NCBI GenBank assembly: GCA_019637115.1
Contig: JAHBWH010000017.1
Location: 1-64,000 of the forward strand
From: Myxococcales bacterium
GTDB taxonomy: Bacteria; Myxococcota_A; Polyangia; Polyangiales; Houyiibacteriaceae
Length of the DNA: 64,000 nucleotides
Direction: 5' to 3'
Below the pieces are notes generated by a model. It did no database searches, was not told where the DNA came from, and worked only from the letters and a program-made list of their open reading frames with translations. The position numbers and the translations under genes were made by a program. Below are positions 1 to 7,197 of this stretch, piece after piece. The first letter of the stretch is position 1. Each line of letters begins with the position of its first letter.

Positions 1-1212
1 CCGGAGGAGCCGATACGGCAGTGGGTGTGCTCGCTGCCGTGGTCGTTGCGCTACGCGATGGCCTACGACCGCCGGCTGTGCGCGGACGTGCTCGGGGCGT
101 TCATCCGCGCGCTGACGCGCTCGCTGCGTCGGCGCGCGAAGCGGCACCTGGGCCTACGCAGCGTGGACGAGGCGCAGGTGGGCGCGGTGACCTTCATCCA
201 GCGGAGCGACAGCGCGCTGCGCTTGAACGTCCACTTCCACACGCTGGCGCTCGATGGCGTGTACGTGCGCGATGCGCAGGGCGCGCTTGTCTTCCACGCG
301 CTGCCTCCGCCGAGCGGCGACGAGGTCGCGGAGGTCGCCGCGTGGACCCACGCCGGGCTGCTCGTCGTGCTCGAGCGGCACGGCCGCTCGCTCGAAGGCC
401 CGAGCGACCAGGGCGACACGCTCGTCCACGAGCAGCCCGTCCTCGCGTCCTGCTACGCCGCGTCGGCCGGAGACGTGCAGCTCCTCGGCGCGGCGCCCGG
501 CGCGAAGACCGCCAAGCTCGTCCGCCCCGTGCGCCTCGTCCCCTCGCCGACCGAAGCGCTCGCTGAGGTCGGTGGGGTGAATGTCCACGCCAAGGTCGTG
601 GTGGACGGCCGCGACCGAAAGCGCCTCGAGCGGCTCTGCCGCTACGTCGCCCGACCGCCGCTCAACCAAGAGCGCCTCGAGCTTCACGGCGACGGGCGCG
701 TCCGCCTCGCCTTCAAGGCCGCGTGGAAAGACGGCACCCACGCCGTCTTGCTCGACCCCCTCGACTTCATCGCGAGGCTCTGCGCCCTCGTCCCGCCGCC
801 GCACGTTCGCATCGATTGCGATGCGGACCATCAACGAAGTCACATGCTCCGCTACCACGGCGTCTTCGCCGCGCACTCCTCCGCGCGCGCCGAGGTCGTC
901 CTCGGCCGCGAGCCCGAGCCTCCTCCGCAGCTCCCGCTCTTCGCCCCCGCCGACCTCGCCCCGCTCGCCCCTCCCGCGCCCCAAGCATCCCGCCACCCGT
1001 GGGCCTGGCTCCTACGCCGCGTCTTCGCCGTCGACGTCACCACCTGCCCCGTCCCGGGATGCGGCGGACGCATGCGCCTCGTCGAGATCGCCAAAGGCCC
1101 CGACGACATCGCCCGCGTCCTCGCCAGCGAAGGACCTCTTCGCGCCCGCGCCCCCCCACGACGCTCCGTTCCTGCGCCTCGTCCAGGGCAGTTGTGCCTC
1201 GTCTTCGGCTGA
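1..1212 (+). CDS. IS91-family (HUH) transposase, 5' end cut by the window edge
   Basis: The frame is open from base 1, so the true start and the usual N-terminal zinc-binding part lie outside the window. The visible part has the IS91-type core: a His-Phe-His (HUH) metal motif at about residues 78-80, candidate catalytic tyrosines downstream in CRYVARPP and RYHGVFA, and a C-terminal Cys-rich finger (TCPVPGCGGRMRLVE). It ends normally in QLCLVFG, so the 3' end looks intact. IS91 elements move by single-strand rolling-circle replication. I found no terminal oriIS or terIS sequence. The element borders the accessory genes that follow and may have helped bring them in. Confidence 0.85.
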   Translation, partial: PEEPIRQWVCSLPWSLRYAMAYDRRLCADVLGAFIRALTRSLRRRAKRHLGLRSVDEAQVGAVTFIQRSDSALRLNVHFHTLALDGVYVRDAQGALVFHALPPPSGDEVAEVAAWTHAGLLVVLERHGRSLEGPSDQGDTLVHEQPVLASCYAASAGDVQLLGAAPGAKTAKLVRPVRLVPSPTEALAEVGGVNVHAKVVVDGRDRKRLERLCRYVARPPLNQERLELHGDGRVRLAFKAAWKDGTHAVLLDPLDFIARLCALVPPPHVRIDCDADHQRSHMLRYHGVFAAHSSARAEVVLGREPEPPPQLPLFAPADLAPLAPPAPQASRHPWAWLLRRVFAVDVTTCPVPGCGGRMRLVEIAKGPDDIARVLASEGPLRARAPPRRSVPAPRPGQLCLVFG

Positions 1213-4387: not shown

Positions 4388-4812
4388 CGAACCGTCGACG
4401 TCCGCGTGGTGCTCGGCCAGCCGCGCCAGGACCGCGTCGAGGGCGCGGTCCGGCTCGGTCGAGGAGGAGCGCGGGTGAGGGTGCTTCGGTCACGGGCGAG
4501 GGGGCCGTAGCGTAGACGGGAAAGGGCGTCCGCGCCGCCCGGATGGGGCCGTGGCCGAGCGGCGGCTCGCCGGGCCGCGGCGCTCCATTTCGGCGCAGCT
4601 CGGACGTCGAAGCACGCAGTGAATCAGGCTCGGGCTGGCAGGCGATGAGGTCTTATCGGTCGGCGACCCGTGGCTCGGATCCCCGAACCGCGCAGGGGCA
4701 GCTCGGGTTGGTGCTCCCGCCGTTGCGCGCGGCCTCAGCAACCACGGAGTGGGGCGAGCGCGTCGTCGCGCTGGTCGGGCGGACCTCGCGCGGGTAGGGT
4801 CGCGCCTACGCC
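4388..4812. other. Gene-poor stretch upstream of the reverse-transcriptase-like gene
   Basis: Contains only the open but start-less extension of the Cys-containing ORF on the minus strand (to about 4488) and noise ORFs. No structured RNA, retron-like msr/msd or clear promoter could be identified by eye. The promoters of the flanking divergent genes must lie here. Confidence 0.5.
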
Positions 4813-7197
4813 ATGCAAGACGATGCCACCGCGATCCGCGCCTTCATCGCGCAGCGGAAGCTGGGCGAGCTCAAGCGATATCGGGCCCGCTTGTTCGCCG
4901 AGTACGACGCCGTCGAGGCGGCCGCCTCGGCGGCGTCCACGCCCGTCGAGCGGCTGCGCGCGCTCTACGACGGATTGCGATCCATTCAGGTGAGCGGTCA
5001 GGCCATCCACCCGGAGGTCAGGAATCTCGACGCGGTGCTCTTCGGCGCCGACGACGAGGCGCAGCTCGCGCTCGTGGCGCAGTGGATCGAGCGCCTCGAG
5101 GCCATCGTCCGGCAAGGGCGGGCCCGGGCCGACGCCATCACGCTCTTCGGAGGTTTGCTTGGCGAGCGGCTCGACGCGGACCGGAGCACGCCGACCTCCG
5201 GCGACGCTGTCGCCGAGGGACTCGCGATCGCCGGCTCCGACGGCCCGCCCGTCGACCTTCCCGCCGTCGTGCGGCGGCTCGAAGCGTCGCTCGGGGAGGC
5301 GGAGCTCGCACGCGCGCGGGCCATGGTCGCCGAGCACAGCGCGAGGAGCCTCGAGCCGAGCGCGGCCGGCGACGTGGCGTCGCTCCTCGGCCGTCTGGCG
5401 GCGCGACGAGAGCTGCCTCGGGCGACGCGCGACCTGCTGCGAGGCCTCGCGGCCTCGGACCCGGAGAAGGGACCGTCCGCCCTCGCCAAGGAGCTCGGCG
5501 CCGCCCTCACGCTGGCGTGGGAGGACCTTGACGCGTGGCGGCCGGCGCCCATCGCGCTCACGCCGAGCTGGGCGCGGACGCGGTGGCGGGTGGCGCCCCG
5601 GATGCGGATCGTCGATCTCGTCCTGACGGAGCTCATCGGCGAGGCCGTGGACGACATCGTCACCCGGGTCGGGGGGCACGCACGCGTCAACCGCCTTGCG
5701 CGCTCGCGGCGTCTGATCGAGCTGAGCGCGCCCGAGGTCATCATCGCCAACGAGCGCCGCATGCTGGACCAGACGAGCGACCTGCGCGGGCTGAGCCGTC
5801 CCTTCTTCTGGCGCGGCGGCGAGAGGCCGCCCGAGGGTGCCAGCCCGCTCGAGGCCTTCGACGCGGCGGGGCCGATCGGGCGCCGGCGCATGGGAGCGCT
5901 GCTCTCGATCGCGAGCGGCGCGCTGGACGGCGAGTACGAGGGCTACGGCGACGGAGACACCGCCATCGCGCAGGCCTTCGCGCTCGTCGGCGCCGAGCTC
6001 GCCCTCGCGCGCGCGCTCCGGCCCGCGGAGCCAGCCGTCGTGATCAAGACCGACCTGCGCCACTTCTTCCCAGCGATGCCCCACGCGCTGGCGCTCGGCC
6101 TCTTGCGTTGGCTCGGCACGGACCCGCGGCTGGTCGACGCCGTCGAGCGCGTGTTGTCTGCGCCCCTGGGCCCGGCCGAGGAGGTGCCGCGTCGCGGGAT
6201 GCCGCTTCGGCTCGGGCTCTCGCGCGCGCTCGGCTCGCTGGTCATGGCAGCCCTGGTCGGCTCCGTGCGCGCGGCGGCGGACGTCATCGCCGTCGACCTC
6301 GTCGACGACCTCGTCTTGATCGCGCGCTCGAACGAGGAGGCGGTGGCGGCGTGGGAGGCCCTCCGGGCGTTCGTCTCGGACGCGGGTTTGGAGCTCAACG
6401 AGGACAAGACCGGCAGCGTCTGCGTGGGTGGCGAGCGCGATCCGCGGCTCCCGCTCGGTCCGGTGCGATGGGGCATGCTCGAGCTCGACGCGTCGGGCGG
6501 CTGGCGGCTCGACGACCAAGCCATCGATGGCTTCGCCGAGATCAGCCGCGCGCGGATCGAAGCGCATGGCGCGCTGCTCGATCGCGTCGCCATGTACGGT
6601 GAGCAGCTTCGGTATCTGTCGACCTGGCTGGCGCCGGCGGCCGACCTCGGCCCGGACCACGGCGAGGCGGTGCAGCGCGCGGTCGCGCGCTTCGACGCGA
6701 TGTCGTTCGGCGGCGGGCAGGTGGGCCTTCGGGCGATGCTGCGGGCGGAGCTCTCCTCTCGCTTCCTCGACGGCGACGCGCTCGGGCTGCCGGACGCCTG
6801 GCTTCACTGGCCGATCACCGCCGGAGGGTTGGGCGTGCCTCACTCCGGGACGGAGCTCGCATCCGTGCGCGCCGCGCGCGCCGCCCGAGAGCCGGTGCCG
6901 CGGCCGGCCGCACCGCCGAGCGAGCGCGATCCGGACTGGGCGGCGTGGTACCAGCACCGCCTCGAGCTGGTCGAGCCGGTCGAACCCGAGGAGACCCCCG
7001 AGGGCGCGGCGCTCGTGGAGCGCTTCATCGCCCGCGGCGCCAAGGTGCGCGGCGAGCCGCAGGACGATCTCGCGCCGGTCTGGCGGTGGGTGCTGGCGAC
7101 CTTCGGGCCGAGCATCCTGACGCACTTCGGGACCTTCGACTTCCTCCGTTCGGATCTCGTGCCGCTCGACGTGATTCGGAGCGGTGGCCCAGGCTGA
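4813..7197 (+). CDS. Stand-alone reverse-transcriptase-like protein with LVDD active site
   Basis: 794 aa. The C-terminal half has RT palm motifs in order: motif A with Asp414 in VIKTDLRHFFP; motif B around residues 461-478, RGMPLRLGLSRALGSLVM, with Gln of the usual PQG replaced; motif C LVDD at 496-499 (Asp498, Asp499), where YxDD is usual; and motif D with Lys532 in LNEDKTG. Both catalytic Asp pairs are kept, so activity is possible. The first 400 residues are helical and resemble no retron, group II intron or DGR RT. There is no maturase, HNH or protease part. A WPITAGGLG motif lies at 666-674. It most resembles the non-mobile cellular rvt genes (first described mainly from fungi, with rare bacterial members); this link rests on memory of family features. 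No partner gene is adjacent. Confidence 0.75.
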   Translation: MQDDATAIRAFIAQRKLGELKRYRARLFAEYDAVEAAASAASTPVERLRALYDGLRSIQVSGQAIHPEVRNLDAVLFGADDEAQLALVAQWIERLEAIVRQGRARADAITLFGGLLGERLDADRSTPTSGDAVAEGLAIAGSDGPPVDLPAVVRRLEASLGEAELARARAMVAEHSARSLEPSAAGDVASLLGRLAARRELPRATRDLLRGLAASDPEKGPSALAKELGAALTLAWEDLDAWRPAPIALTPSWARTRWRVAPRMRIVDLVLTELIGEAVDDIVTRVGGHARVNRLARSRRLIELSAPEVIIANERRMLDQTSDLRGLSRPFFWRGGERPPEGASPLEAFDAAGPIGRRRMGALLSIASGALDGEYEGYGDGDTAIAQAFALVGAELALARALRPAEPAVVIKTDLRHFFPAMPHALALGLLRWLGTDPRLVDAVERVLSAPLGPAEEVPRRGMPLRLGLSRALGSLVMAALVGSVRAAADVIAVDLVDDLVLIARSNEEAVAAWEALRAFVSDAGLELNEDKTGSVCVGGERDPRLPLGPVRWGMLELDASGGWRLDDQAIDGFAEISRARIEAHGALLDRVAMYGEQLRYLSTWLAPAADLGPDHGEAVQRAVARFDAMSFGGGQVGLRAMLRAELSSRFLDGDALGLPDAWLHWPITAGGLGVPHSGTELASVRAARAAREPVPRPAAPPSERDPDWAAWYQHRLELVEPVEPEETPEGAALVERFIARGAKVRGEPQDDLAPVWRWVLATFGPSILTHFGTFDFLRSDLVPLDVIRSGGPG

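Follow-up and report, generated by a model that had tools for sequence, protein, structure and literature searches.

The gene at positions 4813 to 7197 of a Myxococcales genome segment encodes a reverse transcriptase (RT) that an initial annotation, made from the sequence alone, took to be a stand-alone enzyme outside several known RT classes and reminiscent of the cellular rvt genes. To which family does this RT belong, and what, if anything, distinguishes it from its relatives? We addressed both questions in the window (the whole 64,000-nucleotide stretch analyzed) and across bacterial genomes, plasmids and phages.

An intact reverse transcriptase gene

The open reading frame is intact, with an ATG at 4813, a stop codon ending at 7197 and no internal stops, and encodes a 794-residue protein (P0001). 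The features to which we refer below are as follows.

4813..7197, plus strand: UG37 / bacterial rvt-type RT (P0001), 794 aa (open reading frame; PADLOC RT_UG37; Pfam RVT_1)
4813..5550, plus strand: predicted N-terminal all-helical region, residues 1 to about 246, coiled-coil-like, with long helices 2-40 and 82-122 (AlphaFold secondary structure)
5551..5601, plus strand: finger strands and RT motif 2, residues 247-263 (two strands in the AlphaFold model; R259 invariant in 13 members)
5602..6030, plus strand: insertion ("loop 2a") separating RT motif 2 from motif A, spanning roughly residues 264-406 (R259-D414 spacing)
5686..5781, plus strand: RNA-polymerase beta' clamp-helix-like hairpin, about residues 292-323, VNRLARSRRLIELSAPEVIIANERRMLDQTSD (rpoC models, own-genome RpoC, PDB RNA polymerase beta' chains, AlphaFold)
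6037..6072, plus strand: RT motif A, VIKTDLRHFFPA, catalytic D414 (D invariant in 13 members)
6196..6225, plus strand: equivalent of RT motif B, GMPLRLGLSR, residues 462-471, without PQG (G462 and P464 invariant)
6298..6309, plus strand: RT motif C, LVDD, residues 496-499, with D498 and D499 (both D invariant)
6805..6834, plus strand: HWPITAGGLG block, residues 665-674, a UG37 signature after the palm (W666, P667, G671, G672 and G674 invariant in 13 members)
7075..7134, plus strand: C-terminal block, PVWRWVLATFGPSILTHFGT, with V756 in place of the YWRW tyrosine and F764 in place of the second tyrosine (column survey)

A Pfam scan placed RVT_1 at residues 403-536 (E = 4.6e-10, above the cut-off). 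Motif A reads KTDLRHFF around D414, and D498 and D499 lie in the LVDD of motif C, bearing out the initial description of an RT with both catalytic aspartate sites and without PQG, in the right coordinates and frame. An antisense open reading frame of 796 aa (4735-7125, minus strand) overlaps the gene; family matches are all on the plus strand. Modeling with AlphaFold from 13 homologues gave a confident structure (pLDDT 82.5, pTM 0.83), with a predicted first helix of 39 residues and a second of 41 in the N-terminal region. The best PDB fold matches of the model were the RT cores of R2, LINE-1, group II and DRT9, with query TM values mostly about 0.24 to 0.38. Because the closest solved structures are RT cores at such values, the palm is real and the complete architecture is absent from the PDB, where neither sequence nor fold searches recovered an rvt-like full-length match; a fold search of BFVD returned nothing beyond generic RT and RdRp palms. 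The structure model had been put forward earlier as a check of the palm fold, and the palm is present in it. We conclude that the gene is a genuine, intact, single-copy reverse transcriptase.

P0001 is a divergent member of UG37

The PADLOC RT_UG37 profile matched P0001 with E = 3.3e-130 and 433.5 bits, spanning residues 9-788 of 794 and profile positions 6-768 of 778, whereas the second-best PADLOC RT model, UG17, reached 33.5 bits. By this profile match P0001 is a divergent member of UG37 (very probably bacterial rvt) and no new RT class, UG37 having already been catalogued. The earlier profile-search proposal led to a catalogued class, neither retron nor group II. The gene indeed falls outside retrons, group II introns, diversity-generating retroelements (DGRs) and CRISPR-linked RTs, but a claim that it fits no known class is incorrect, given the full-length UG37 match. 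A literature search for UG37 itself returned unrelated papers, the UG/Abi classification paper and the main rvt papers lying outside its reach.

Several candidates were rejected along the way. A group II intron RT was set aside on a score of 33.5 bits against the 300-bit TIGR04416 cut-off and the absence of an Rfam hit near the gene. For a retron RT, the NCBIfam retron RT family models did not match P0001 at E values up to 1 and an Rfam hit was again absent; the PADLOC RT_outgroup model (retron class) matched at E = 0.002. The DGR and cas-RT readings were ruled out by profile scores together with context.

Thirteen UG37 members from two phyla share a common domain layout. The block KLxEL...HPEVxNL...GRxRA is conserved in the N-terminal region of all 13, and motif C varies as [LFMA][VIN]DD. 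The non-YxDD motif C, the long helical N terminus and the WP..AGG block, initially regarded as oddities of this gene, are therefore traits of UG37 as a whole.

UG37 is sparsely distributed and stands alone

Full-length UG37 proteins were found in 3 of 379 genomes drawn from throughout the Myxococcota, with two additional genomes from a class sample, and in 11 of 301 genomes of the Chloroflexota, the phylum of Herpetosiphon aurantiacus. No UG37 match was detected in 72,556 plasmids or 50,697 phages, and a scan of IMG/VR with the 13-sequence alignment found no relatives. Against genome contigs, P0001 alone as a query found no relatives; a three-sequence alignment found five loci, four of which were UG37.

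The RT is single copy in its own genome. All-against-all comparison of ten UG37 loci and the window revealed no shared neighbor gene beyond kinases of a generic kind and two pairs resembling chance matches. In the window, the gene is flanked by a transposase-like open reading frame, a GAF/sigma-54 activator and Ser/Thr kinases. The putative transposase (window positions 25-1212, plus strand; Pfam Y2_Tnp, E = 4e-19) lies about 3.6 kb upstream of the RT. Among the neighbors no defence-specific gene was found; PADLOC scores were confined to Ser/Thr kinases of a generic kind plus a sigma-54 regulator, and the models hit were broad kinase and AAA families. Likewise, no Rfam family was found around the gene, and no retron- or DGR-type repeats, repeat pair or cas gene near it. 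These results agree with the initial view of a stand-alone, single-copy, nonmobile gene accompanied by neither a noncoding RNA repeat nor a partner gene.

Two other loci merit description. The UG37 gene of H. aurantiacus (L008:8941-12355) begins 28 bp behind a hisG-like open reading frame on the same strand and is possibly in an operon with histidine synthesis; at this single locus, the arrangement fits a link to starvation. The UG37 homologue at L060:7911-11498 (G843) continues in frame, just after DDDIPF, into an open reading frame that by eye resembles ATP-grasp, either a fusion or an assembly error.

UG37 as the probable bacterial branch of the rvt genes

A bacterial RVT, HaRVT, was reportedly the subject of a biochemical study by Yushenova and Arkhipova in 2018, and we take its source organism to be H. 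aurantiacus. The RVT_1 matches in the H. aurantiacus genome comprise group II-type RTs, a retron-type RT, an RT beside a cas1-like open reading frame, and one RT of 786 aa that is a UG37 homologue of P0001 over its full length. Because the other RTs of that genome are group II, retron or cas1 linked, the UG37 gene is, by elimination, most probably the only one that could be the published HaRVT.

Found in eukaryotes and a small number of bacteria, rvt genes are single-copy RT genes marked by a large insertion that separates RT motifs 2 and 3 (PMC5718144). In P0001 the spacing between R259 and D414 is 154 residues; the interval from motif 2 to motif A is 112 to 165 residues in UG37 versus 57 to 64 in the group II, retron and cas1-linked RTs of H. 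aurantiacus. On the strength of the HaRVT elimination and this rvt-type insertion, which is one hallmark of the family, UG37 very probably represents the bacterial branch of the rvt genes, as compared among bacterial sequences. The likeness to rvt genes proposed initially is thereby upheld as most probable, with the qualification that the lineage is already catalogued as UG37. RVTs are reported to polymerize without a template, to be induced by inhibition of protein synthesis, and to help cells withstand amino acid starvation and antibiotics (PMC3520738; PMC10680173). If UG37 is bacterial rvt, the stress-responsive rvt and defence-linked UG RT literatures, now apart in the literature searched, would be joined.

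At the C terminus, P0001 differs from its relatives. The YWRW tyrosine (column 756) is a tyrosine in 12 of 13 UG37 members and is replaced in P0001 alone (V756); the second C-terminal tyrosine is F764. According to the 2018 HaRVT study, conserved tyrosines near the C terminus reportedly prime synthesis (protein priming). Because both are missing, P0001 may not self-prime in the manner reported for HaRVT. In addition, the tails of four homologues (L003, EYDDVPF; L034, LEEHPF; L021, NDGDDLF; and L038, DDDIPF, which then reads on) resemble the C-terminal tip of single-strand-binding protein, a feature that P0001 lacks.

The insertion carries a copy of the RNA polymerase clamp-helix tip

Within the insertion, ahead of the palm, P0001 contains a hairpin overlooked in the initial annotation that resembles the tip of the RNA polymerase beta' clamp helices. 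NCBIfam rpoC models match the segment (E = 4e-4), RpoC from the same genome aligns with it at 59% identity over about 32 residues without gaps, and it matches many PDB RNA polymerase beta' chains with weak E values. The segment was detected by NCBIfam, PHROGs and BLAST; a Pfam scan did not detect it in UG37 proteins. Five of 13 UG37 members matched rpoC models independently (best E = 9e-5), and direct comparison with RpoC identified as carriers P0001, L003, L005 and L037 from the Myxococcota and L028 from the Chloroflexota, whereas the hairpin is missing in Herpetosiphon, L021, L034, L029 and L038. With E. coli or own-genome RpoC as the query, the five carriers outscored 2600 shuffled UG37 sequences, 13 reversed sequences and five other RTs. 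Among carriers, identity is higher over the segment (44 to 62%) than over the whole protein (30 to 45%). AlphaFold predicts helices at residues 289-303 and 308-318 of P0001, broken at a conserved AP tip, with pLDDT of about 88 to 92; in the H. aurantiacus homologue, the equivalent region has no RpoC match and a model confidence of about 50 to 58.

The P0001 segment aligns without gaps to residues 273-302 of E. coli beta'. In the sigma-32 holoenzyme structure, the beta' clamp-helix residues that contact sigma region 2 are R275, R278, R281, L282, L285, I291, E295 and M298 (PMC10216364). All eight are identical in P0001 (R294, R297, R300, L301, L304, I310, E314 and M317), as they are in L003, L005 and L028, with six of eight identical in L037. 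Overall, 38 of 40 contact positions are kept in the five carriers, a count equalled by 0.07% of random position sets; at noncontact clamp-helix positions, the carriers are 27 to 45% identical to E. coli. The beta' mutants R275Q, E295K and A302D are deficient in holoenzyme formation (PMC8321222); the A302 position is not kept in UG37, where it is T, V or R. The clamp-helix mimic inside the UG37 RT lineage is what is new here, and in the literature searched we found no description of an RNA polymerase clamp-helix mimic inside an RT.

A separate stand-alone clamp mimic was encountered in the Myxococcales metagenome-assembled genome contig JAEUKE010000008.1 (L010:7769-9325, plus strand). This 518-aa protein is not an RT; it combines part of RpoC domain 1, in which the clamp helices are intact (Pfam RNA_pol_Rpb1_1, E = 7e-13), with a C terminus that weakly resembles SUFU (E = 0.002).

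In a UG37 tree built without the insertion and rooted at the midpoint, carriers of the hairpin lie to either side of the deepest split, and the hairpin requires three changes and defines no single clean clade; the tree contains one long branch, and its root and branching order are uncertain. Since carriers fall on both sides of the midpoint split, the hairpin is probably ancestral, with one old origin and later losses, including that in Herpetosiphon. The only bacterial RVT that we know to have been studied biochemically would therefore lack the mimic.

What the hairpin may do

The best explanation of these data as a whole, to which we assign a probability of roughly 50%, is a stand-alone UG37/rvt stress RT that performs untemplated synthesis and whose hairpin docks sigma region 2. 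The RT would be a domesticated, chromosomal, stand-alone enzyme that, by analogy with studied RVTs, probably oligomerizes through its N-terminal helices and, to judge from the literature, probably performs template-free nucleotide addition once translation fails or amino acids run short. The hairpin, judging by its sequence and predicted fold, would dock sigma region 2. A beta' coiled coil is reported to induce binding of the nontemplate strand by sigma70 (Young et al. 2001, cited in PMC8321222), and docking could therefore either withhold sigma or offer the RT single-stranded, promoter-like DNA. In the first, speculative option, the docked hairpin would keep free sigma off the core polymerase; in the second, equally speculative, sigma would deliver such DNA to the active site of the RT, for use as primer or substrate. 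Untemplated DNA synthesis would thereby be tied to the transcription state of the stressed cell.

The hairpin of P0001 thus suggests a link between reverse transcription and the control of gene expression. We propose tentatively, at somewhat less than even odds, that one lineage of rvt/UG37 RTs captures sigma by means of its beta' clamp-helix copy, such that under stress untemplated DNA synthesis would either vie with transcription initiation for sigma or share it. If so, a sigma-docking surface conserved in one branch of UG37 would offer a concrete, testable partner. The retained contact residues are suggestive of sigma binding and fall short of proof, because conservation of those positions in RpoC may have any cause. 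Counting against docking are the extent of the sequence match, about 32 residues only, and the loss of the A302 position, since A302D harms holoenzyme formation. Docking would also not be essential to the RT, because the family fold is kept in Herpetosiphon, L021, L034, L029 and L038, which lack the hairpin.

An unlikely alternative makes UG37 an anti-phage defence RT whose hairpin is a decoy for phage proteins that target or co-opt the host RNA polymerase through its beta' clamp helices (e.g., phage sigma factors), binding of which triggers infection-stopping DNA synthesis. Decoys of phage targets are a known idea in defence. UG37 is filed under DRT in PADLOC, and numerous UG RTs are proven defence enzymes (PMC12632851). 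However, defence-specific neighbors and a conserved partner gene are absent, the PADLOC scores nearby being generic; UG37 is missing from the plasmids and phages searched; the H. aurantiacus gene follows a hisG-like open reading frame by 28 bp; and RVTs are reported to respond to starvation and antibiotics (PMC10680173, PMC3520738).

Sigma need not be the partner, since the beta' clamp helices are also bound by NusG and RfaH (PMC9226497). A hairpin that docks NusG, RfaH or a NusG-like factor would tie the RT to elongating polymerase or coupled translation. Retention of the sigma-contact set (38 of 40) compared with 27 to 45% E. coli identity at the remaining clamp-helix positions counts against this reading, which we rate improbable, an argument that is not decisive because NusG contacts overlap. 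We give a similarly low rating to the idea that the hairpin is an RNA polymerase-like helical fold merely aiding finger packing or oligomerization of the RT, binding no transcription factor. The segment is short and has been lost in several members that retain the RT, as this idea would have it, but it is conserved above the protein average, is absent from other RTs, and keeps the charged beta' contacts R275, R278, R281 and E295, which packing does not obviously demand. Finally, assignment to one of the mobile or classical classes (retron, group II intron, DGR or CRISPR-linked RT) is refuted at the sequence level. Group II, retron and Drt models give the palm weak scores that stay far under their cut-offs (33.5 versus 300 bits for group II), whereas the UG37 match is full length at 433 bits, and the surroundings of the gene yielded neither intron RNA nor msr-msd, repeat pair or cas gene.

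Comparison with known systems

The protein-primed RTs AbiK/AbiA and DRT9 belong, like P0001, to the UG assemblage. DRT9 occurs among the PDB fold matches of P0001 and AbiK among its weak sequence matches; the full-length fold is unmatched (query-normalized TM of about 0.3), the N- and C-terminal domains of P0001 differ, and no known noncoding RNA family was found beside the gene. Compared with the clamp helices of RpoC, P0001 has the hairpin tip only, embedded in an RT, with the rest of RpoC absent. To RT_UG37 (PADLOC PDLC03776; unknown-group / DRT catalogue) P0001 is alike in its full-length profile match; the top-scoring members are Chloroflexota proteins (about 1200 to 1290 bits), from which the Myxococcota protein P0001 is divergent, and P0001 has the clamp-helix hairpin whereas the Herpetosiphon members do not. 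With the rvt RTs (HaRVT and Neurospora RVT), P0001 shares a single-copy, stand-alone gene, a long N terminus, the insertion between motifs 2 and 3, and a conserved C-terminal domain; it differs in that both C-terminal tyrosines are gone (V756 and F764) and in that its insertion bears a beta'-like hairpin.
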